Source: an uncultured Clostridia bacterium (GTDB lineage Bacteria > Bacillota > Clostridia > Oscillospirales > Acutalibacteraceae). From it: 43,310 nt of DNA. The notes beneath the pieces are model-generated. The model was not told the origin of the DNA. It saw only the letters and a list, made by a program, of their open reading frames with translations, and ran no database searches. Positions within the stretch are counted from its first letter, which is position 1. Each line of letters begins with the position of its first letter. The stretch is from NCBI GenBank assembly GCA_946184925.1, contig CAMHHL010000009.1, forward strand, positions 1-43,310, read 5' to 3'. Below are positions 1 to 14,463 of this stretch, one piece after another. Made by a program: the position numbers and the translations under genes.

Positions 1-77
1 CGCGGCAGGAGCAGAAGGCTTTCTCGCGGCAGGAGCAGAAGGCTTTCTCGCGGCAGGAGCAGAAGGCTTTCTCGCGG
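1..77. repeat. 24-bp in-frame tandem repeat (about 3 copies) encoding AARKPSAP octapeptides at the C-terminus of the EAL protein
   Basis: cgcggcaggagcagaaggctttct is repeated head-to-tail three times from base 1, followed by a partial cgcggca. Confidence 0.95.
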
Positions 78-2037
78 CAATGCTTGCCGGCTTGCGCGGC
101 TCGGGCGGCTTGACAGCAGGTCGCGGAGATTTGGTCGTTGAGTGCGGAGCAAACCTTATCAGCTTATCCACGGACGGTTCGTTCGCCGGGTAAACCTTTG
201 AGAACACAAAGCCCTGCACAAAGTTACAGCCCGAGGACTTTGCCTCGGCGAGCTCTTCCTCGTTCTCGACGCCCTCGCAAAGCACGAGAGTGTTGAGGTA
301 ATGGGCAAGCTTGACTATACCTCTCAAAAGCGAATCGCCGCGCTGAGTGAGTGATTTCTCAACAATTCCGCGGTCAACCTTTATGATGTCAATCGGATAG
401 TCGCACAAATCTCTCACCGACGAATAGCCGTTGCCGAAATCGTCAAGCGCGATTCGCACGCCCGTTTCCTTGCAGGCAACGATGTTTTTGACCGCCTTCT
501 CGTTGTCTGAGGCGAGCATATCCTCGGTTATCTCTATTACAAATTTTTCGCGGTCAAACTTGTATTTGTTCAGAATCTCGCCGAAGCGCTGCGTGAAATC
601 ATCCTGAGAGAGCGTCGTTCGCGTAAGATTGCACGAAATCCAGAGGTTGGATTTAACGCCCTTGCTCCACTCCTCAAGCAGAGCGCAGCTGTTCTCGATC
701 ACCTTGTAATCAAGGCTGTCAATCATGTTTGCCGATTCGAGAAGCTCTATATAATCGCCGGGCAGGATTATGCCGTTTTCGGGATTATGCCAGCGCGAAA
801 GAACCTCGGCGCCGCAGGCGCAGTCGGTGTCCGTGTCGAAAATATACTGAACATAAAGCTTGAACTCGTCGTTGTTAATCGCGTCGGAAAGCTTCCTGCG
901 AAGGTTATGCTCATACTCCTCGCGCTTGAGGAGAGCCTCGTCGCTGAACGAATACGGAACAGAATTCTTCTCGGCGCAGCTGTTGCCGGAGGATGCCCTG
1001 AGCACAGCCTTTTCACAGGAAATGTTCGGGTTTTCAATGTGATAAATTCCGGCGTGGAAATGGATGTTGTATTTATCCATATTCTCGTTGTCGATGCTGT
1101 TGAGCTTGTTAATGAGCGTTTCGACAAACTGCGCGGCGCTCTCCTTGGAAGGCGCCTGGAACGCGAGCACAAACGCTCCGTCCGACAGTCTCGCGCAAAA
1201 ATCCCTGTCGCCGGCGGAAGAGGAAATCGTCTCAGCCGCAAACACCTGAACCTCGTCGGACACCGACGTGCCGGTAAAATCCGAGAGCTTAGTCGCGTCG
1301 ATAGTGATGTACGCAAGATAATAAAGCACATAGGTATCGGGCGAAATCTGGCGCGGGAACCAGTATTCAAAGTACAACTTGTTGCCGATTCCGGTGAGCG
1401 TGTCCTCGAGGCGGTCGCGGTCAGCCTTTTTCCTTTTCAGTCTTATTCTGATGATTACGACAATCAGAACCGCGACAACAGCCGCAAGACCGCCGATGAT
1501 GAAGAACAGATAATACGGGAAATCCGACGAACGGTTATCGTAGGAGGTTTCGACCGCCGACCTCAGCATTTCCGATGTATTTGCGGAGCTGAGAGCGGCT
1601 TTGACAGTGGAGCGGAGCTCGTCGGGAGCAATATCGGTGAAGCCGACATACACCTTCTTCTCACTGCCGTCGTGTACAAACGACAGGACAAAGGTTTCGT
1701 CAATCAGCTTTCCTGCGTCGTTCGCAAAATGAGCGGAAACAATCTCGACCTGCTTGTTCTTCGCGAGGCGCTCCTGCTCGTTTTTGTCGCCGGAGCTTAT
1801 ATAAGAAAAGTCAATTTTGCTCTGTTCGGAGAGCTTTTTGAACACTTCGGGGAGAATTCCGCGGTAGCTGTCGCTGTCCCTGTCATAATACTCCAGCGGA
1901 TACATATCCGGGTTGCCTGCTATGTAGACCGTGCTGCCGTTTGTCGGCTCCTTGGTTGTGACAACTCCGGCGCTCGCCTGAACGGGAAAAAGCAGTACCG
2001 CTATTACGATTAACAGTACCGACAGTTTTATTCTCAT
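1..2037 (-). CDS. Periplasmic SBP-like sensor - TM - degenerate GGDEF - EAL protein (c-di-GMP phosphodiesterase candidate), truncated at window edge
   Basis: Reverse-strand translation starting at 2037 (MRIKLSVLLIVIAVLLFPVQASAGVVTTKEPTNGSTVYIAGNPDMYPLEYYD...) stays open to base 1. It contains a TM segment (FPYYLFFIIGGLAAVVAVLIVVIIRI), a degenerate GGDEF site (LSDGAF) and EAL motifs (CGAEVLSRW, CNLTRTTLS, EITED, DDFGNGYSS, IKVDRG, CEGVEN). It is absent from the ORF track because no stop codon lies in the window. Confidence 0.88.
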   Translation of the reverse strand, partial: MRIKLSVLLIVIAVLLFPVQASAGVVTTKEPTNGSTVYIAGNPDMYPLEYYDRDSDSYRGILPEVFKKLSEQSKIDFSYISSGDKNEQERLAKNKQVEIVSAHFANDAGKLIDETFVLSFVHDGSEKKVYVGFTDIAPDELRSTVKAALSSANTSEMLRSAVETSYDNRSSDFPYYLFFIIGGLAAVVAVLIVVIIRIRLKRKKADRDRLEDTLTGIGNKLYFEYWFPRQISPDTYVLYYLAYITIDATKLSDFTGTSVSDEVQVFAAETISSSAGDRDFCARLSDGAFVLAFQAPSKESAAQFVETLINKLNSIDNENMDKYNIHFHAGIYHIENPNISCEKAVLRASSGNSCAEKNSVPYSFSDEALLKREEYEHNLRRKLSDAINNDEFKLYVQYIFDTDTDCACGAEVLSRWHNPENGIILPGDYIELLESANMIDSLDYKVIENSCALLEEWSKGVKSNLWISCNLTRTTLSQDDFTQRFGEILNKYKFDREKFVIEITEDMLASDNEKAVKNIVACKETGVRIALDDFGNGYSSVRDLCDYPIDIIKVDRGIVEKSLTQRGDSLLRGIVKLAHYLNTLVLCEGVENEEELAEAKSSGCNFVQGFVFSKVYPANEPSVDKLIRFAPHSTTKSPRPAVKPPEPRKPASIAARKPSAPAARKPSAPAARKPSAPAA

Positions 2038-2076: not shown

Positions 2077-3510
2077 TTACTTTAGGTTGATTTTCTTTCT
2101 TTCGATTCTGCCCCAGTTGAGGCGCTTTTTCTTGTAGCCGATGAACGCCGTCGCTCTGACCCATGCCATGACGAATCTCAGGAGGGTTATCTCAAACAGG
2201 CAGAGAAGCACCGCCTTGAGGGTGTCGGCAGGTGAGATTTTGAGGTCGATTGTCTGGGTTCTGGCGAAGAACGCCGTCAGCGTCAGTATCGAGCCGAAAA
2301 CGGCGTAAATCCCGAAGAAGAGCAGCATGAACGGCACGTTTATCAAGTCCACCAGGAAAGCCAGAACCATGGTGAGAATACCGAATATCTCGATAAACGG
2401 CGAGAGGAGCTCATAAATCAGAAAATAAAAATACGAAACAAAGCTCACTGCGCCGAACTTGGGGTTTGCGAAGATTTTGCGGTGCTTGAGCATCGTCTGG
2501 AACAAACCGAGGTGCCAGCGCTTTCTCTGCTTGCACAAGTCGATCAGACGTTCGGGAGCCTGAGACCAGCAGACCGCGTCGGTCGCGTATTTGATTGAAT
2601 AGGGCTGTTCGTTTGTGACGCAGTACTCATGAAGCTTTACGACGAGCTCCATGTCCTCGCCCATTGTGGAATGGTCATAGCCGCCTGCGGCGATTACGGT
2701 GTCCTTCTTGAAAAGTCCGAACGCGCCCGAGATAATCATCGAGCCGTTGAATTTGTCAAAGAGGATACGCGACGCAAGGAACGAGCGGTCATACTCGAGC
2801 ACCTGCATACACGCCAGAACATTGCTCGGCAGCTTGTAGTTGATGACTCTGCCGCGGTCTATCTGCACGCTGTTTGCAGGGCGGACGGCTCCGCCGACGG
2901 CAACAACGTTGGCGTCCTCGATGACGGGCTTGACAATCTTGCTCAGCGAATCATACTGCAAAACCGAGTCGGCGTCCATGCATATAAAATACGGATAACG
3001 GCAGGCGTTAATTCCCATGTTGAGGGAGTCAGCCTTTCCGCCGTTTTTCTTTCTTATCAATGTGAGCGGAACCTTTCCGCTTACCGACTCATAGATGAAT
3101 TCCTCGGACTGACACATAATCTTGCGCTGAATCGGACGGCGTATGGGCTTCATATCAAACGCCCTGATAAGGCGCTGTGAGGTCGCGTCAGAGGAACCGT
3201 CGTCAACTACGACAATTTCGTAGAGAGTGTAATCGAGTGCGAGCAGCGACCGGACGTTTTCAACAATCGTAACTTCCTCGTTGAAGGCGGGTACGATTAT
3301 GCTTATCGGAACGAAATAGTCCCGGTTGATTGTATTTTTCAGCTTTTCCTGACGGCGTTTCTTGTAAAGCGACGAGGAACCCGTCACAACCGCAACGAAA
3401 AGGAAGGTCGAATAGCCGATGAGGTAGATTACAAAGAACGCCTCGACCCATTCGAGAAAGACCTTGACAAATTCAAAGGCGGCGTCGTTGAAGAGAATGT
3501 TTCTGAGCAT
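2077..3510 (-). CDS. Processive family 2 glycosyltransferase (poly-beta-glycan synthase-like)
   Basis: 477 aa; DDGSSDATS, MDADS and QRKRWHLG motifs; N- and C-terminal TM segments. Confidence 0.9.
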   Translation of the reverse strand: MLRNILFNDAAFEFVKVFLEWVEAFFVIYLIGYSTFLFVAVVTGSSSLYKKRRQEKLKNTINRDYFVPISIIVPAFNEEVTIVENVRSLLALDYTLYEIVVVDDGSSDATSQRLIRAFDMKPIRRPIQRKIMCQSEEFIYESVSGKVPLTLIRKKNGGKADSLNMGINACRYPYFICMDADSVLQYDSLSKIVKPVIEDANVVAVGGAVRPANSVQIDRGRVINYKLPSNVLACMQVLEYDRSFLASRILFDKFNGSMIISGAFGLFKKDTVIAAGGYDHSTMGEDMELVVKLHEYCVTNEQPYSIKYATDAVCWSQAPERLIDLCKQRKRWHLGLFQTMLKHRKIFANPKFGAVSFVSYFYFLIYELLSPFIEIFGILTMVLAFLVDLINVPFMLLFFGIYAVFGSILTLTAFFARTQTIDLKISPADTLKAVLLCLFEITLLRFVMAWVRATAFIGYKKKRLNWGRIERKKINLK

Positions 3511-4601
3511 CAGGTTTCCCCCTTTGCGAATAGTTTCTTGCGGTCGAGCCTGTAGCGCATCATCTCGCCGGCGTAGCGGTCATCGCCGTCGAAAACATCG
3601 AGCAAATCGGCGTATTCGAGTCCGAGACGCTCGAGGCTCTGCGACGCGTTGAATCTGACGTACCACACGCGGCTCCCGAGCTTGCTCTTGAGCACATCGA
3701 CAGTGCGCTCGCACGGATAATTAGCCAGAGCGAACGCTCCGATTGCCTCGTACTCCCAGTTTCCTTCGTCGTTTGCCGAAACAAATTTAACGAGCTGTTC
3801 GTAGGCGTCGTCGCAGTGGTATTTTCCGAAATATCTGATGGCGCTGAAGCGGATTTCCCTGTCGTATTCGTCCGACTTGAGCCGCTTCAGCATCTCGTTG
3901 TCGTAGTCGCCGCCGCAGAACCTGATGTAATCCATTAGCGCGGTCTGCATTTCGACGGAGAATTCGTCCATCTTCTCCCATATCAGGGAGTTAAGCTCGG
4001 ACTTGTCGCCGGTGAAACTCAGCAAGCCGTCAGTGATGAGCTTTTTGTTGTGATAGAATTCGTTGCCGTTGACAATCTCCAGCGCTCTGATTACATATTT
4101 GCTGTTGCCGATTGAATAAACGGCGTGCAGAGCGTTCTCGCGGCTGTAGAGGCTGGGGCTTTTTATCAGCTCATACAAGGAGTCGATGATAACGCCGGCG
4201 TTTTCGCTGTCAAACAGCCTGTATTTCTCGATAATATACGGGAAATACGCCGCCTGAATCTCATTTTTGTGACTGTAAAGCCGGGTAAGCTCCACAAACA
4301 CCGGAGTCATCTCACGGATATACGACTTGATTTCGTCGTGATATTCCGCGTCAAGCTCGCCGAGTGTAACGTCAAACGCCATGAGGTTGCGCGCACGGCG
4401 GAGCTTTTTTGCGAGATACTGAGCATGGCCGTCGTCAACAGTACCGCTCTTGATATGGCGCGTTATTCTGTTTTTAAATTCATTGCTGTAGAGCACAATC
4501 TGATTATCGTTGTGTCTGAACAGGAAGATACAGACGATGTTGAAGATAATCATCGCTACACAAACAGCAAGATAGCCGTAGATAAGTATCTCTACCTTCA
4601 T
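3510..4601 (-). CDS. HEAT-repeat protein with N-terminal TM anchor
   Basis: 363 aa; N-terminal TM, then alpha-helical repeats (e.g. EYEAIGAFALANYPCERTVDVLKSKLGSRVWYVRFNASQSLERLG). Coordinates overlap the ends of both neighbours, which suggests translational coupling. Confidence 0.75.
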   Translation of the reverse strand: MKVEILIYGYLAVCVAMIIFNIVCIFLFRHNDNQIVLYSNEFKNRITRHIKSGTVDDGHAQYLAKKLRRARNLMAFDVTLGELDAEYHDEIKSYIREMTPVFVELTRLYSHKNEIQAAYFPYIIEKYRLFDSENAGVIIDSLYELIKSPSLYSRENALHAVYSIGNSKYVIRALEIVNGNEFYHNKKLITDGLLSFTGDKSELNSLIWEKMDEFSVEMQTALMDYIRFCGGDYDNEMLKRLKSDEYDREIRFSAIRYFGKYHCDDAYEQLVKFVSANDEGNWEYEAIGAFALANYPCERTVDVLKSKLGSRVWYVRFNASQSLERLGLEYADLLDVFDGDDRYAGEMMRYRLDRKKLFAKGET

Positions 4602-6778
4602 TATTTATCTCTCCAGAGTTTTTGAAGCCTGTAATATGAGCTTTTGAGACGTTCGTGATAGGTCACGGTGTTTTCCCAGCCCTTGAGCTCAAAGGGGCTG
4701 AGACTGATTCGCCTGCCGCTTTTTCCGTCGGAAATTCCGGCGAGGAGCTTATCGGCAGTGATATATTCGATTCCGTAGTTGTTGTCATAGTAATCGTCGT
4801 GGATTGTCATTCGCGAAGGGTCGGAAAAATTGAGAAGCTGCCACGGAAGCTTGATCTCGATGTAATCGCCGTTTGAGTTGAAATCCGCGAGCGAGTTGAA
4901 ATCGGGGCTCTCGGGGTTTGCGTTGCCGTAGAGGAGCTTGCCGGTTTCAAAAACCTCGGCAGGAGCCTCAAGGTTGTTATACAGCAGCGGCGTCGCGGTC
5001 TGGAGAATCATATCTATATTTACAAACTTCGGGGAATCCTTGTCGGGAACATTCCCCTTGAGATATGTATCATACTGATAGACGTTCTCGCAGTAGTTTG
5101 AGCGGAGAGCCTCGTATCTCTCCTGAACCATCAGCCTGCTGTTATCCCTTCCGTCGATGACAAGCAGGAAGTCCGCCGCCTTGTCAAACAAAAGGTCAAA
5201 ATTCTCGCAGTAGCTGGAGCCTGTTTTCGGCGTGAGGTCGATTGGGATATACAGCTTTTCGCTGTCGAAGCTCAGCCCCTTTTTGTTGACGAGGAAATAA
5301 ACGAATTTTTCGTCATATTTCATCGAGAGCGACATGTTCTTTTCGCGGCAGAACACGTCCTTTTCGCTCCACTCGGACACATCGCCGTCAACATAGCAGA
5401 CGGATTTCTTCTCGCCCGGGTCGAAGGAGAGCAGACCGAAATACTGCTCGTTGGTCTGGTAGTCCGACCAGTAGGGCGTGCGCTTGAGGTTGACGGCGTA
5501 CATGGTGTTCCATGTTCGCTTGAACCATTCGTCCTGCCATGAGAACACGCAGCAGCCCGAGCAGCCTGCCGCCTTGATGTCGTTGTAGCAATCGACAAGC
5601 GCCTGTCCCTGCTCCTTCTCGGACATATTACCCTGATTTCTTCCGGTGTTCATATCCTTCTGAGCCATTCCGCGCCCGGTCGAAACTCCGAACTCCGAAA
5701 TAACAACCGGCATTGTGTGGTGCTTTGTGAGCATTGAGAGGTAGGCTCTGTATGTGTTCAGCTCTCCGTCCTCATTATAGAATGAGCCGACGTCTGCAAT
5801 CCCAAGCTCGCTCCAGTTCTTTACAAACGAAAGATAGTCGGGATAGTACGGATACACATGATACGAAGCAAACTGTCCCGAGAGGAAATCCTCGGTGCAT
5901 TTGATGTGTTCGACATCCACCTCGGCGCATTTCATAAAGAATCGCTCGACGTCCTCGGGATACTCAAACGGGTCGGTTGTCGGCCAGTTCGAGAACGCGA
6001 CGAGGCGCTGCTGCTTGTAGCGGTTCGATTCATACTCGATAACCTTGTCGCCCACCCTCGCGAGCATAACCTCAAACGGAGAGGCGTCCGCCGTGGTGTA
6101 CATATATTTTCCTTTGAAGGACGTGTAGCCGTCCTTATCCTTTAATTTTTCGTCGGTATAAACGACGGTGACATCCTCCCACTCAACGCCGAGGATATAG
6201 CCGATTACCCACTTTGAGATGTCTTTTCTGTAGCGTCCGGAGCCTGCCGACGCCATTCTGCCGAGAGAGATGTCGCGGTTGCCGTGGATTACGTCAATCG
6301 CGGTGCGGCTGTCGTCGAGCAGCTTGTGATAGAACTCGTCGTCATATGAATCGCGGTGGGAGTTCTGGACATAGTCGTTAACCCACACTCCGTGGATGAT
6401 CCACAAGGGGTTGGGATTGTTCTCGTTATATTCATAGAAAGCGTTGTAGAACACGTCCTGCTGAACGGTGTAGACGCGGATGGTGTTGGCGCCCATCTCC
6501 TGGATATACTTGAACCAACGCTTGTAGGTTTCCTTGTCGATGTCAAAATCGGTTGACCACTCGCCCGGCTCGCCCGAGCCGAGGTTGACGCCCTTAATCT
6601 CGAACGGCTCGTAATCCTTGCCGTTGTTCATGAGAATTTGGTCGCCCTCGGTGCGCATGAACGTTGTGACCTGATCTCCGGGAGAAAGGTCGATATACCA
6701 GCCGAGCTGGAAATACGCCGCGTCAACGCAGAAGTATAAAACCACGATTATTGACACAATGATGATGAATTTTTTCAT
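4601..6778 (-). CDS. Membrane-anchored glycoside-hydrolase-like protein (TIM-barrel, GH2/GH5-like)
   Basis: 725 aa; N-terminal TM; FEIKGVNLGSGEPGEW, MGANTIRVYTVQ, VVISEFGVSTGRG and CCVFSWQDEWFKRTWN resemble clan GH-A barrels; C-terminal carbohydrate-binding-like region. Confidence 0.65.
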   Translation of the reverse strand: MKKFIIIVSIIVVLYFCVDAAYFQLGWYIDLSPGDQVTTFMRTEGDQILMNNGKDYEPFEIKGVNLGSGEPGEWSTDFDIDKETYKRWFKYIQEMGANTIRVYTVQQDVFYNAFYEYNENNPNPLWIIHGVWVNDYVQNSHRDSYDDEFYHKLLDDSRTAIDVIHGNRDISLGRMASAGSGRYRKDISKWVIGYILGVEWEDVTVVYTDEKLKDKDGYTSFKGKYMYTTADASPFEVMLARVGDKVIEYESNRYKQQRLVAFSNWPTTDPFEYPEDVERFFMKCAEVDVEHIKCTEDFLSGQFASYHVYPYYPDYLSFVKNWSELGIADVGSFYNEDGELNTYRAYLSMLTKHHTMPVVISEFGVSTGRGMAQKDMNTGRNQGNMSEKEQGQALVDCYNDIKAAGCSGCCVFSWQDEWFKRTWNTMYAVNLKRTPYWSDYQTNEQYFGLLSFDPGEKKSVCYVDGDVSEWSEKDVFCREKNMSLSMKYDEKFVYFLVNKKGLSFDSEKLYIPIDLTPKTGSSYCENFDLLFDKAADFLLVIDGRDNSRLMVQERYEALRSNYCENVYQYDTYLKGNVPDKDSPKFVNIDMILQTATPLLYNNLEAPAEVFETGKLLYGNANPESPDFNSLADFNSNGDYIEIKLPWQLLNFSDPSRMTIHDDYYDNNYGIEYITADKLLAGISDGKSGRRISLSPFELKGWENTVTYHERLKSSYYRLQKLWRDK

Positions 6779-6793
6779 AAATTCTCCGTAAAA

Positions 6794-8272
6794 TCAATTT
6801 GCGTTTTCGATGAATTTCTTAACCTTGGATTCCGCGCTGTACTGTCTGATGGTTTCTATGTTTTCATCAAGTTTTTCTGAACGCGCGGAGAGAAAATTCT
6901 TCAAATCCTCAATCGCCTCGTCGTAGCTGCGAGGGTTTCTGTCTTTTGGGGTGAGGAGATCATGTTTCTCGTCAAAGGTATAGCCCCACTTCTCGAAGTT
7001 GCGGTCGATTGCGTCGCCGAGGTAGTCCCTGACGCCGTCGATATAGTCAAAGAGATATTCCTCGGAAAAATACGTTTTCCTGAGCTCCTTGTATCTGCTG
7101 ACTATTTTGTCGGTGAAATCCCTGTCCTTGATGAGCATGAAGTACCACAGGCAGTTCTGGAACTCAAAGCCCTCATCGTTAATATGCGATTCCTGATAGT
7201 TATCGCAGGAGGAGTTGAAATCCCAGATACACATGCGGTATTTTTTGTCGATATCCTTATAGATGTAGGTCGAGAGCCAGCCTGCGTCATAGTTGCAGGT
7301 GAACTCGTTTATAAGGAAATAATCAACGAACGATTCGACGTCAATCAAGTCCTTGTAGCCGTAGAGCTTGTTGTCAAAATCATAGGAATAAATCGCCTTT
7401 TCAAAATCGGAAAAGTCCTGTGTGATTGAACGGTTGAGCTCCGGGGTGAGGTTCTGCCTGCCCGGATACATAATCTCGAGCTCGTTTACGGTTCTGAGCG
7501 CGTAATGGGTGAAGGAATCCGCCTTCTTCCATGCTTCCTCATGTCCGCGGTCGAGACAGAGCAGATAGCCGGAGTAGGTGTTGTCCTTCTTGTCAACCGA
7601 AAGGTTGAGGCGCGCGCCGTTTTCGCCCGCGGTTATGCTCTCGGTCATAACATAAAGCCCTTGGTACTCTCCGTTGATAAATGCCTCGCAGAACCTGACG
7701 TTCGGCGCGTAATCCATAATTTCGCCGGCGATGTTATACCACATATAGTTGCGCATGAGGGTTTTGTCGAGGAAGGGACCGTGAAGAACCCAGTCCTGAT
7801 GTGCGCTCATACCCATGACCGGCTGAGGATTGTTCATGCCGTTTTCATCGACGAGCTTGAGCGCGTAGCCCTTTTTGTCGAAATAACGCGAGGAGTTTCC
7901 GCGAATGTGGATTGTAGCCTTGCTCTCAATCGCCGGGGCGTCGTCGATGTGGTTGCGCGTTTCGGCGTTGTCGATGATTTTTATATCAGCCGTAATGCGG
8001 TCGCTGCCGTCGGCGGCGGTTGTATAACCGGCGAACTTATGGTTCAAGTCGTTCAGCGGTTCTCCGGGAATTTCGGCTCCGCCGGTGTTTATCTCAATTA
8101 CGGGAAGATGCGTACAGAATTTTTTGCTGTCGTGATTTGTGCAGACGGGCTTTTCAGCCGCGTCAAGATGCTGATGCACGCGGTTCTTTTCGGGGTGCGC
8201 CATTACCGTCGCCGCCAGAGCGCTCAGAACAAGGAGCACACACGCCGCCGCGCCGAGGATTCTGTATTTCAT
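6794..8272 (-). CDS. CotH-family (kinase-like) secreted protein
   Basis: 492 aa; signal peptide; IHIRGNSSRYFDKKGYALKL, HGPFLDKTLMRNYMWYNIA, EAFINGEYQGLYVMTE and CIWDFNSSCDNY are typical of CotH proteins. Confidence 0.88.
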   Translation of the reverse strand: MKYRILGAAACVLLVLSALAATVMAHPEKNRVHQHLDAAEKPVCTNHDSKKFCTHLPVIEINTGGAEIPGEPLNDLNHKFAGYTTAADGSDRITADIKIIDNAETRNHIDDAPAIESKATIHIRGNSSRYFDKKGYALKLVDENGMNNPQPVMGMSAHQDWVLHGPFLDKTLMRNYMWYNIAGEIMDYAPNVRFCEAFINGEYQGLYVMTESITAGENGARLNLSVDKKDNTYSGYLLCLDRGHEEAWKKADSFTHYALRTVNELEIMYPGRQNLTPELNRSITQDFSDFEKAIYSYDFDNKLYGYKDLIDVESFVDYFLINEFTCNYDAGWLSTYIYKDIDKKYRMCIWDFNSSCDNYQESHINDEGFEFQNCLWYFMLIKDRDFTDKIVSRYKELRKTYFSEEYLFDYIDGVRDYLGDAIDRNFEKWGYTFDEKHDLLTPKDRNPRSYDEAIEDLKNFLSARSEKLDENIETIRQYSAESKVKKFIENAN

Positions 8273-8287
8273 CTTCTCACCTTCTTT

Positions 8288-9895
8288 TTAACCTATATAT
8301 TTTGCTATCGGAGTGCCCGTCATTCGGGTAATCCTTCTTAAAACCGACGATTTCAGGTTGAGACCTGCGTCGCGGACAAAATAGTTGACCTCGCTCATGC
8401 GAACGTCCTCTCTGTCGCCTGCGAGCAGCAGCTTGTAGCCGCTTTTCAGCCATGCTCGGTCGGCTGTTTCACACCGTATGGAGTACGGATAAGCCATTGC
8501 GCACGGCGTGTACCCGAGGTGTGTGTTGATATTTCTCGATATTTCCAGCCAGTCCTTCTGAGCCATCGGCAGAAACTCCGCGACAGTCTCGTTCTCGGCG
8601 CAGTTCGCGCCGTGTCTGCCGTCGTGATTAAACACATGCAAAAACTGGGTGTGGCTCTCCATATCAATTGCGCCGGAATCGTACATTTCCTTAATCTCGT
8701 CCCATGTGCAGTAGGGAGCCGGGTTCTCCTCCATATATCCGGGAGTTACCGTGGCGAGGTCAATCTCGGTGCCGATTACCGAGAGCACAGCCTTCATTCC
8801 GTATTTTTTCAGAATCGGGAAGGCGCGCTTATACACGCCGTATTTTCCGTCGTCAATCGAGAGGATAATTGGCTTTGACGGCATTGTGCCCTTGCCCTCC
8901 AGATAATCGGAAAGCTGACGACAGGTTATGGTTGTGTAGCCGTTTGATTTGAGCCATTTCAAGTCGCTTTCGAACTCGCTCTGATAAATCGCGTATTCAT
9001 CAAAGGCGATTCCGCTCTTGAGGTCGGATTTCGTGACGAACTCATGGTACATCATGACAGGCACGCCGAACACGGACTTTGCGTTTTTGCCGGTCTGCTC
9101 CGCCGAGCCCGTAAGGCTCGATGACTTTCCCTTTACGGCTCTCGCCTTGTAGAAATATGTGCTGTCCCGAGTAACCTTTGTATCGTAGAAATACGGTTCG
9201 TCGGTTCTTCCGGCGAGGGTGTATTCTCCGCTCTGAGAAGCCGAACGGTAGACCTCATAGGAGCTCTTCACATCTGACGAAAGCTCCAAAACCGCGGTTG
9301 TTTCGTCAAGCTGAGTAACCGCCGTTATCTGCGGCTGTCGCAGAGCGTTGAGCGTGTCGGAGCTTTTTTTGGTGCTCTTGTCGGTGACATAAAACCCGGT
9401 GATGCCGGAATCAGCCTTCACGAGCTTTTCAAAGCCCTTGACTTCGCCGAGCATGCGGCTGCCGCCGCTTGTCTTGCCGTAGATTTCAAAGGAAGAATTT
9501 TTCTTTCCCGTCCATCTGAGCATGAACTCGCCCTGCTTTTTCTGCACAACAGCCTGCATAACCGGCGCCTCGGAGACAGCCACGGTGTCGCTTGTCACCG
9601 CCTCTGAGGTTCCGCCCTCGCCGATCAGCTCGAGCTTGTAGGTGTATTTGCGGTCGGGGTTGAGGTATTTGTCGGTGTATGAGGTTTCTTCGCAGTCACA
9701 AATGAACTTGAAGTCCTTCTCGTCCGAATACTTGCGGTAGAGCCTGTATGTATGAGCTTCGCTGCTTTTGTCCCAGCTCAGCTCCGCGTTCCTGCCGCTG
9801 ACGCTCACGCGGAGCGCGGCAGGCTTTTCAGGCGGCGCCGAGCACGCCGTGAGCAATAAAGCGCACAACACAAGCGCGCATAAAAGCCTTCGCAT
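8288..9895 (-). CDS. Lipoprotein with FN3-like repeats and C-terminal polysaccharide deacetylase (NodB-like) domain
   Basis: 535 aa; lipobox LLTACS; FN3-like beta repeats; PVMMYHEF, IILSIDDG, DMESHTQFLHVF, AYPYS. Confidence 0.85.
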   Translation of the reverse strand: MRRLLCALVLCALLLTACSAPPEKPAALRVSVSGRNAELSWDKSSEAHTYRLYRKYSDEKDFKFICDCEETSYTDKYLNPDRKYTYKLELIGEGGTSEAVTSDTVAVSEAPVMQAVVQKKQGEFMLRWTGKKNSSFEIYGKTSGGSRMLGEVKGFEKLVKADSGITGFYVTDKSTKKSSDTLNALRQPQITAVTQLDETTAVLELSSDVKSSYEVYRSASQSGEYTLAGRTDEPYFYDTKVTRDSTYFYKARAVKGKSSSLTGSAEQTGKNAKSVFGVPVMMYHEFVTKSDLKSGIAFDEYAIYQSEFESDLKWLKSNGYTTITCRQLSDYLEGKGTMPSKPIILSIDDGKYGVYKRAFPILKKYGMKAVLSVIGTEIDLATVTPGYMEENPAPYCTWDEIKEMYDSGAIDMESHTQFLHVFNHDGRHGANCAENETVAEFLPMAQKDWLEISRNINTHLGYTPCAMAYPYSIRCETADRAWLKSGYKLLLAGDREDVRMSEVNYFVRDAGLNLKSSVLRRITRMTGTPIAKYIG

Positions 9896-9896
9896 A

Positions 9897-10574
9897 TCAG
9901 TTGGATACCTCGTCGTTCTGCATTACCACGTTGACATATTCAACACCGCCGAGGTCGTAGACGGAATCAATCAGGTTTACGCCGTTGTTCTCAGCCTTTC
10001 GGAGCATTGCGGAGCTAACTTCAAAGATGAACTCGATGTTGTCCTCGGTTGAGTTGCGGACTCTGAGTATAGCCTTGCGCTTGAAGAGATTGTACATGTG
10101 AGCCTGGATTTCAGACTGACGGTTTCTTGAAGCGCGGATGACGATGAGCATGCGGTTGTCGGAGCGGATGAAGCCGAGCACCAGAAGCACAAGGAAGGTA
10201 ATCACGCTGCCGATGCACGCCACGAGATAATCGCCGACGCCGCAGCAGATTCCGACGATGACAGTCCAGAAGATGTAGACCGTGTCGCGGCTGTCCTTGA
10301 TTGCGGTTCTGAAACGGACGATTGAAAGCGCACCGACCATACCGAGCGAAAGCGCGATGTTGTTGCCGATTACCGTCATAACCGTTCCGGTGAGAACAGT
10401 CAGAACCACCAGCGAGGCGTTGAATTTTTTGCTGTAGATTGTACCCTTGTGGGAAAGGTAATAGGAAAGATAAATGAACGCTCCTATCACTGCTGCCACG
10501 AGAACATTCATTATAATGCTTTCGATTGACAGATCACCCGTGTTTTCAAACAGACTGAATAACTTGTCTTTCAT
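9897..10574 (-). CDS. DUF4956 membrane protein
   Basis: Likely start MKDKLFSLFENTG at 10574 with a good SD (TAAGGAG), not the track start at 10658. TM segments followed by VGALSIVRFRTAIKDSRDTVYIFW, typical of DUF4956. Confidence 0.82.
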   Translation of the reverse strand: MKDKLFSLFENTGDLSIESIIMNVLVAAVIGAFIYLSYYLSHKGTIYSKKFNASLVVLTVLTGTVMTVIGNNIALSLGMVGALSIVRFRTAIKDSRDTVYIFWTVIVGICCGVGDYLVACIGSVITFLVLLVLGFIRSDNRMLIVIRASRNRQSEIQAHMYNLFKRKAILRVRNSTEDNIEFIFEVSSAMLRKAENNGVNLIDSVYDLGGVEYVNVVMQNDEVSN

Positions 10575-10587
10575 AAAACCACTCTCC

Positions 10588-11283
10588 TTAAATATGCGTC
10601 TGATACGCGTTCTGTCTTGCGAGAACATACTTGCTGACAGACAGCTCGCTTTTATCAATACAGTTAATCAGATTTTTTATATAGCTCAGCAAAAATCCGT
10701 TGTACTTGACCTCGAGAACAACGTCGTAGGGGTCGAGCACGGGATTCATCAGAAGCTTATCCGAGAACAAATCAAAGCAGCTCTCGGTGGAAACAATCGC
10801 GTTATCAAAGGTAACGCGGATTTTGTTTTCCCTGGCGATGAACGCCTTGCGGTTGTACTGCACGATTGTCTTGGGGCGATAAAGCCGCGACTGCATGAGC
10901 GAGTACATCTCCGCCGCAAACGGCTCGCTGTAGCCGAGGAGCGGCGAATAATCGCATTTTATCAGGCGCTCCGCGTCGCTGCGGCTCAGCCTGAGCGAGC
11001 GCTTGAGCTGCCGTGTTCCCTGCTTTTGCTTGAGCTCAAGCATGGCGAAGTCCTGATTCGGATCATAGCACCTGAGCCTGACCTTGCGCCTGAGCTCAAC
11101 GCCTGCCTGTTTCTCAAAAAAGTCGGTGTCAAAAACAGTGTCAAAATACAGCGAGCGTATCATATAGCCGTGGGTTCCGTTGTGCGGATCCTGAAGCATA
11201 ATCTGCTCCAGCTTGCCCGATGTTCCGAGATATTCCGCAACGCTGATGAGGAATTTTTTCTCCTCACGCATGACCTTGTTCAA
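10588..11283 (-). CDS. VTC-domain (polyphosphate polymerase-like) protein
   Basis: Likely TTG start at 11283, spaced 7 nt from AGGAGGTG. YMIRSLYFDT, ELRRKVRLRCYD, MLELKQK and VLEVKYNGFLLSY motifs. Confidence 0.82.
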   Translation of the reverse strand: MNKVMREEKKFLISVAEYLGTSGKLEQIMLQDPHNGTHGYMIRSLYFDTVFDTDFFEKQAGVELRRKVRLRCYDPNQDFAMLELKQKQGTRQLKRSLRLSRSDAERLIKCDYSPLLGYSEPFAAEMYSLMQSRLYRPKTIVQYNRKAFIARENKIRVTFDNAIVSTESCFDLFSDKLLMNPVLDPYDVVLEVKYNGFLLSYIKNLINCIDKSELSVSKYVLARQNAYQTHI

Positions 11284-11303
11284 GCTGTCACCTCCTGACA
11301 ATG

Positions 11304-11339
11304 AAAAAGCCGACCGCGTTCCTTTGAGAATGCGGTCGG
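11304..11339 (-). terminator. Intrinsic terminator forming the expression platform of the c-di-GMP-I riboswitch
   Basis: Minus strand CCGACCGCATTCtcaaagGAACGCGGTCGGcTTTTT; the 5' arm overlaps the 3' end of the aptamer. Confidence 0.85.
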
Positions 11340-11408
11340 TCTATCATACGAAATCGCTTAGATACCTGACTTTGCGTCCCTGCCTTTCGACAGGTTTGCC
11401 TAACGTTC
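11330..11408 (-). promoter_or_regulatory. c-di-GMP-I (GEMM-I) riboswitch aptamer
   Basis: Minus strand AACGTTAGGCAAACCTGTCGAAAGGCAGGGACGCAAAGTCAGGTATCTAAGCGATTTCGTATGATAGACCGAC. It has the conserved GGCAAACC...GAAA...GGGACGCAAAG core, and a P3 carrying a CUAAG/UAUG tetraloop receptor for the GAAA loop. Confidence 0.9.
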
Positions 11409-11411
11409 GAT

Positions 11412-11440
11412 ATTATACTATATTTCCCGACAAAAATCAA
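11412..11440 (-). promoter_or_regulatory. Sigma-70-type promoter for the riboswitch-controlled operon
   Basis: Minus strand TTGATT - 17 nt - TATAAT, placing the start site a few nt before the aptamer. Confidence 0.8.
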
Positions 11441-13314: not shown

Positions 13315-14463
13315 TTAATACTTGGCGCACTCGGGAGCATTCGCGTTCGCGGAAGCCTCGTCAAACCAGATGAGGTTGTTTCCGCTCTCCTCGTCAAAGA
13401 GTTGAATAAGCTCGGGAGCAACGTCAAAGTTGATTTCCTTGCCCATGGATACATCGGCGCCGAGTCCGATTGTCGGGATAACCATTACAATATCGTCGTC
13501 GCCGCTCTTGGCGTGGATGTTGTATTCGGTACCCATCATCTCGCTGACTTCAATCTTGGCGGAGAGCTTGCCGCTTCCGACGGTGATGTGCTGCGGACGG
13601 ATTCCGGCTACGATTGAGGTGGACTTGCAGTCTCTTGATTTGAGCGCCTTCTGCTGGAAGTCGCTGAGCTCGAATTTTACTCCGCGGATTTCAGCATAAT
13701 ACTTGCCGTTTTCGAGCAGGAGCTTGCTGCCCTTGAAGAAGTTCATCACGGGCATTCCGATGAATCCGGCTACGAACAGATTGACAGGCTTGTTGAAGAG
13801 GTCCTGAGGAGTACCTATCTGGTTGACATAGCCGTCCTTCATAATAACGATACGGTCGGCGAGCGTCATAGCCTCGGTCTGGTCGTGAGTTACATACATA
13901 AATGTTGTGTCAATTCTTTTTCTGAGCTTGATGATCTCGGCACGCATCTCATTCCTGAGCTTAGCGTCAAGGTTCGAGAGAGGCTCGTCCATGAGGAAGA
14001 CCTTGGGGTTTCTTACCATAGCTCTGCCGATAGCGACACGCTGTCTCTGACCGCCGGAGAGAGCCTTCGGCTTGCGGTCGAGGTACTGGGTGATGCCGAG
14101 GATTTTCGCGACCTCGTTAACCTTCTCCTCAATCTGCGCCTTGGGAGTTCTCTTGAGCTTGAGAGCGAACGCCATGTTGTCGCGCACGGTCATGTGGGGA
14201 TAGAGCGCATAGTTCTGGAAAACCATGGCAATATCTCTGTCCTTGGGAACAATGTCGTTCATAAGCTTGCCGTCGATATAAAGCTCACCCTCGGAGATAT
14301 CCTCAAGACCTGCAACCATTCGCAGGGTTGTGGACTTACCGCAACCGGAGGGACCGACAAGAACAATGAACTCCTTATCCGCGATAGTAAGGTTTACGTC
14401 ATGAACGGCGGTAACCTTGTTGTCATAGATTTTCTTGATTCCCTTTAAAATTACTTCGGACAT
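13315..14463 (-). CDS. Sugar ABC transporter ATP-binding protein (MsmX/UgpC type)
   Basis: GPSGCGKSTTLRMVAG Walker A, LSGGQRQRVAIGRA signature, VFLMDEPLSNLDAKLR Walker B, TOBE-like C-terminus; start taken as MSEVILKGIKKIYD at 14463. Confidence 0.93.
   Translation of the reverse strand: MSEVILKGIKKIYDNKVTAVHDVNLTIADKEFIVLVGPSGCGKSTTLRMVAGLEDISEGELYIDGKLMNDIVPKDRDIAMVFQNYALYPHMTVRDNMAFALKLKRTPKAQIEEKVNEVAKILGITQYLDRKPKALSGGQRQRVAIGRAMVRNPKVFLMDEPLSNLDAKLRNEMRAEIIKLRKRIDTTFMYVTHDQTEAMTLADRIVIMKDGYVNQIGTPQDLFNKPVNLFVAGFIGMPVMNFFKGSKLLLENGKYYAEIRGVKFELSDFQQKALKSRDCKSTSIVAGIRPQHITVGSGKLSAKIEVSEMMGTEYNIHAKSGDDDIVMVIPTIGLGADVSMGKEINFDVAPELIQLFDEESGNNLIWFDEASANANAPECAKY

Follow-up and report, generated by a model that had tools for sequence, protein, structure and literature searches.

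A c-di-GMP-I riboswitch, very probably a transcriptional ON switch, ahead of an exopolysaccharide-type operon in a gut Clostridia genome

The leader and the genes behind it

The window, by which we mean the whole stretch of 43,310 nucleotides that was analysed, carries a short leader and a run of genes that reaches the contig end. The features, in the order of transcription, are:

11412-11440, minus strand: sigma-70-type promoter, TTGATT-17 nt-TATAAT, 10/12 matches
11328-11410, minus strand: c-di-GMP-I (GEMM-I) aptamer, RF01051, with covariation in 11 orthologues
11304-11339, minus strand: intrinsic terminator, 8-bp stem plus UUC/GAA, 6-nt loop, U5, about -19 kcal/mol
11291-11295, minus strand: Shine-Dalgarno sequence GGAGG, 7 nt upstream of the TTG start at 11283
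10588-11283, minus strand: VTC-domain protein, first operon gene (PF09359, E 1.4e-36)
9897-10658, minus strand: DUF4956 membrane protein (PF16316, E 1.7e-12)
8288-9895, minus strand: lipoprotein-like protein with fn3 and polysaccharide deacetylase domains, PgaB/IcaB-like (PF01522)
6794-8272, minus strand: CotH kinase-like protein (PF08757, E 7.9e-58)
4601-6778, minus strand: membrane-anchored glycoside-hydrolase-like protein, 725 aa (weak PF03198 match), kept in operon orthologues
3510-4601, minus strand: HEAT-repeat membrane protein (PF13646)
2077-3510, minus strand: membrane GT2 polysaccharide synthase, PgaC/IcaA-like (PF00535)
1-2037, minus strand: degenerate-GGDEF/EAL protein, predicted c-di-GMP phosphodiesterase, open at the contig end (PF00563, E 1.2e-57)

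The first-pass annotation of this DNA had placed a TTGATT-17-TATAAT promoter on the minus strand, and it is there, at 11440-11412. Similar promoters lie upstream of most orthologous aptamers, and transcription would start at about 11406-11404, 4-6 nt before G20, the first conserved G. The strong terminator described in the same annotation is recovered by folding at 11339-11304, though a simple scanner overlooked it, with its mismatch and long inner part. The 5' half consists of CCGACCGC (11339-11332) and UUC (11330-11328), the loop is UCAAAG, and the 3' half comprises GAA (11321-11319), GCGGUCGG (11317-11310), a C, and UUUUU (11308-11304). From the U-tract to the TTG codon at 11283 is 20 nt, in line with the earlier estimate, and conservation of a TTG/ATG-AAYAAGGT context in the orthologues supports this start.

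What kind of operon follows? The gene order is kept in relatives, and gene content and comparison agree with the exopolysaccharide type first proposed. The GT2 protein also finds cellulose synthase structures (E 3e-7), while the glycoside-hydrolase-like protein has no relative of solved structure detectable by sequence. A PNAG (pga/ica) operon was considered and rejected: the synthase scores 145 bits against the PgaC/IcaA model TIGR03937 (cut-off 422), and the deacetylase, whose gene is missing in three relatives (L110-L112), scores 122 bits against the PgaB/IcaB model TIGR03938 (cut-off 322). The operon thus resembles a synthase-type exopolysaccharide system rather than pga/ica. In the NELoc-2 locus of Clostridium perfringens (PMC2879425), genes for VTC, a small membrane protein, CotH, a protein of about 700 aa, HEAT and GT2 occur in the same order, and there is overlap with the Pel accessory genes CotH/PPP/DUF4956/DUF4832 (PMC7112168), a paper that makes no mention of riboswitches. 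Compared with these accessory genes and with NELoc-2, the window operon has in addition the deacetylase and the terminal EAL phosphodiesterase. A search of the open-licence literature found no paper tying a c-di-GMP-I riboswitch to CotH, VTC or DUF4956 genes. For the VTC-DUF4956-CotH polysaccharide genes, which are poorly understood, the leader would name a signal.

Family membership and the ligand pocket

The RF01051 search proposed in the first-pass annotation gives a match to the full model (positions 1-87) at 11410-11328 on the minus strand, with 63.2 bits and an E value of 3.6e-10 over the window; the curated cut-off is 35 bits. A degenerate pattern of the core occurs a single time in the window and in 0 of 100 shuffles. 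The GEMM-I assignment made earlier from the consensus is thus borne out, and when the whole 2.3-Mb assembly was scanned, this aptamer was the only RF01051 match. P2 is capped by a GAAA tetraloop, and P3 carries the UCUAAG/UAUGA tetraloop receptor just where it had been annotated. The bases that contact the ligand are all there, namely G20 (11400), A47 (11373) and C92 (11332), as positioned by the RF01051 alignment and the published numbering (PMC4744006, PMC3764141, PMC11218506). On these grounds the RNA is a well supported member of the c-di-GMP-I (RF01051, GEMM-I) family, and it would be expected to bind c-di-GMP.

Two features give pause. Crystal structures of class-I aptamers contain a P1 helix, and when P1 was sought by pairing the flanks of G20 and C92, the window and most orthologues showed none. 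The Rfam consensus of RF01051 itself leaves the flanks unpaired and has no P1, so its absence is not decisive for membership. In the RF01051 alignment, moreover, model pair 40-81 is A.C in the window aptamer. Because P1 is lacking and this pair is A.C, the free aptamer may be weak, and one might ask whether the leader has decayed into a constitutive attenuator, its ligand binding lost. We think this most improbable, as the contact bases, the tetraloop and its receptor are intact, and P2 and P3 covary among the orthologues together with the terminator.

Is c-di-GMP the ligand? G20 favours c-di-GMP. A GEMM-Ib type switch responding to 3',3'-cGAMP would call for A20, the change associated with cGAMP binding (PMC9481103), and two orthologous aptamers ahead of the same operon, L110 (9872-9959) and L111 (3578-3661), do have A at this position, as do 10 of the 86 readable aptamers of the order. 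The window aptamer has G at 11400, however, and both canonical diguanylate cyclases of the genome retain the aspartate of GHxxGD. That aspartate argues against hybrid cGAMP synthases. We therefore give cGAMP sensing by the window aptamer very little weight and favour c-di-GMP; since L110 and L111 have A at position 20, ligand choice may vary across the orthologous aptamers.

A separate variation was seen beside the pocket. In 14 c-di-GMP-I aptamers (L042-L047, L057, L058, L060-L062 and others), pair 21-46 is C-G instead of G-C, and in every case both partners have changed. They include aptamers of nine genomes of the same genus (G004, G012, G017, G050, G058, G075, G079, G083 and G084). Several stand in tandem, and most precede related secreted-protein genes (...NASIAWVKQANGTLVWVPA...).

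Exclusive folds of the leader and their conservation

The 5' arm of the terminator (11339-11332) holds most of the P3 3' strand together with the ligand-pairing C92, so that aptamer and terminator are mutually exclusive. The first reading had the arm overlapping P3 and probably P1; folding upholds the overlap with P3, but the P1 part falls away, as the flanks do not pair. By thermodynamic folding, which takes no account of ligand, tertiary contacts or kinetics, the truncated window transcript folds as P2 plus P3, and the full leader goes to the terminator fold in all 11 orthologues. As the window transcript grows, the formed fraction of P3 stays at 0.87-0.93 up to 17 nt beyond C92 and has dropped to 0 by 20 nt. 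Ligand-free P3 is less than 0.3 formed in G005, G044, G087 and L112, even before the terminator emerges, so in these leaders ligand or tertiary contacts must matter.

How widely is the arrangement conserved? We screened 149 relatives and found RF01051 matches in 45. An aptamer immediately precedes each of the seven VTC genes of at least 74% identity, the window's among them, and an eighth aptamer (G005), sited where its contig ends, is followed by the beginning of another such gene. Three further loci in gut Clostridia MAGs, from roe deer, sheep and horse, also carry the aptamer, so that the arrangement is kept in seven same-genus relatives and three other loci. More distant relatives of the operon, in Aveggerthella (L113) and Collinsella (L114), have no RF01051 match, and the link between riboswitch and operon is therefore lineage-specific.

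The covariation alignment comprises 11 leaders. Pairing across it reaches 97.9% in the aptamer helices, where seven pairs have both partners changed, and 97.7% in the terminator stem, where two do. For each of the two structures, 0 of 500 shuffles reach either the cells-paired or the covariation score, and slid versions score far lower. Covariation in the two alternative folds falls on columns that they share. The window is the only leader with A at column 82, and the pairing partner is U both in P3 and in the terminator. For the A that G044 and G087 have at column 81, there is a pairing partner in the terminator but none in P3.

These findings lead us to propose, with considerable confidence, that the leader is a transcription-terminating c-di-GMP-I riboswitch and acts as a pilM-type genetic ON switch. 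RNA polymerase would start a few bases upstream of the aptamer, and once C92 has been made, the P2/P3 aptamer would be competent for c-di-GMP, which would pair with C92 and lock P3. The 3' arm of the terminator would emerge some 17-20 nt after C92. With no ligand bound, this 3' arm would strip away the P3 3' strand and C92, and transcription would stop after about 100 nt; with ligand bound, the polymerase would continue into the exopolysaccharide operon. That ligand should block the terminator had been proposed at the outset, and comparison and folding support the logic, with the direction in the cell still a prediction.

The closest precedent is the pilM riboswitch of Geobacter metallireducens, an ON switch whose terminator takes up the ligand-pairing C75, with an anatomy established by experiment (PMC9262584). 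Like the window leader, this GEMM-Ib RNA has a class-I fold, a terminator that captures the ligand-pairing C and the aptamer 3' strand, and a short decision stretch. Unlike it, pilM senses cGAMP, is drawn with P1 and controls pilus genes, whereas the window RNA has G20, no P1 and an exopolysaccharide operon. Bc1 of the Bacillus cereus group also combines a class-I aptamer with terminators and is reported to activate transcription of reporters; it differs in its 220-nt platform, which has two terminators and affects both transcription and translation (PMC11218506).

One might think that in Clostridia an OFF switch, in which bound ligand causes termination, would be the better guess, as 11 of 12 class-I switches of C. 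difficile are negatively controlled (PMC3649979). The Cd1 (Cdi1_3) switch of C. difficile flgB belongs to the same aptamer family as the window leader, also controls transcription through an intrinsic terminator and likewise comes from the Clostridia (PMC9262584, PMC3649979), but it is an OFF switch controlling flagella, in which the terminator coexists with the aptamer and an antiterminator competes. An OFF design needs such coexistence and competition (PMC9262584). In the window, by contrast, the terminator draws on P3 and C92 themselves and takes over only 17-20 nt after the aptamer is complete. Folded without ligand, all 11 full-length leaders adopt the terminator. An OFF switch at this locus is accordingly very hard to credit, and we retain the ON reading.

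Across the genus, a terminator that contains C92 and reaches -14 kcal/mol or better is found in 42 of 46 readable aptamers, versus 13 of 184 block-shuffles, so the ON design looks like a rule of the genus, unlike in C. difficile, where OFF is the known rule. The pilM-type ON mechanism, described for cGAMP in Geobacter, would thereby reach c-di-GMP-type aptamers in a genus of gut Clostridia. A looser criterion, an overlap of 6 bp whatever the energy, proved uninformative and was dropped: 46 of 47 aptamers of the genus and 25 of 42 from other families of the order pass it, and so do 109 of 230 shuffles.

The predicted terminal phosphodiesterase and the signal network

It is very likely that the operon extends to the EAL gene at the window end, and the whole is predicted to be co-transcribed. 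Six other aptamer loci are readable that far; in five (L111, L112, L115, L117 and L118) an EAL homologue stands behind GT2, and in the sixth, L110, there is no phosphodiesterase gene after GT2. In an alignment with the five orthologues the EAL catalytic residues are kept wherever they are covered (L117 is partial) and the GGDEF motif is lost in all, and the protein is therefore predicted to be a phosphodiesterase. Since the last gene would then degrade c-di-GMP, switching the operon on should also limit the signal, which suggests self-limiting, negative feedback. At window 1-120 (minus strand) the EAL protein ends in RKPSAPAA repeats, which continue past the contig edge and have no counterpart in the orthologues.

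What else in the cell might respond to c-di-GMP? A domain profile search of the genome gives four GGDEF and two EAL matches, and two of the GGDEF proteins, with intact GGDEF and GHxxGD motifs, are canonical diguanylate cyclases. No PilZ, MshEN or HD_5 match was found in the genome. A genome search for c-di-GMP-II riboswitches likewise gave no match, an absence that is only suggestive because the search lacked a positive control. The window riboswitch may be the cell's main output for c-di-GMP, although unrecognised protein receptors may exist as well. We suggest tentatively, and at somewhat less than even chances, that in this lineage a single RNA is the sole recognisable c-di-GMP receptor and that its operon ends in its own phosphodiesterase, joining signal, polymer and signal destruction in one self-limiting circuit, with a parallel in the same genus in a Pel-type, HD-domain case. 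Such a circuit in gut Clostridia would be compact and testable, and its output gate would be an RNA, not a PilZ or PelD protein.

The in-genus case is locus L121 (921-16147, genome G023), where a c-di-GMP-I aptamer with an overlapping terminator stands ahead of a Pel-type cluster. The cluster comprises DUF2194, a PelF-like GT, PelG, CotH, VTC, DUF4956 and DUF4832 genes and ends in an HD_5-domain protein; it is a second polysaccharide operon, and its last gene may encode a phosphodiesterase.

A second structured RNA lies in the window. A malK-I RNA (RF03069, 117.5 bits) is found at 14635-14458 on the minus strand, immediately ahead of a gene for a MalK-type ABC ATPase (13315-14445), and its neighbours include divergent genes for a sugar ABC transporter, an AraC regulator and an alpha-galactosidase.
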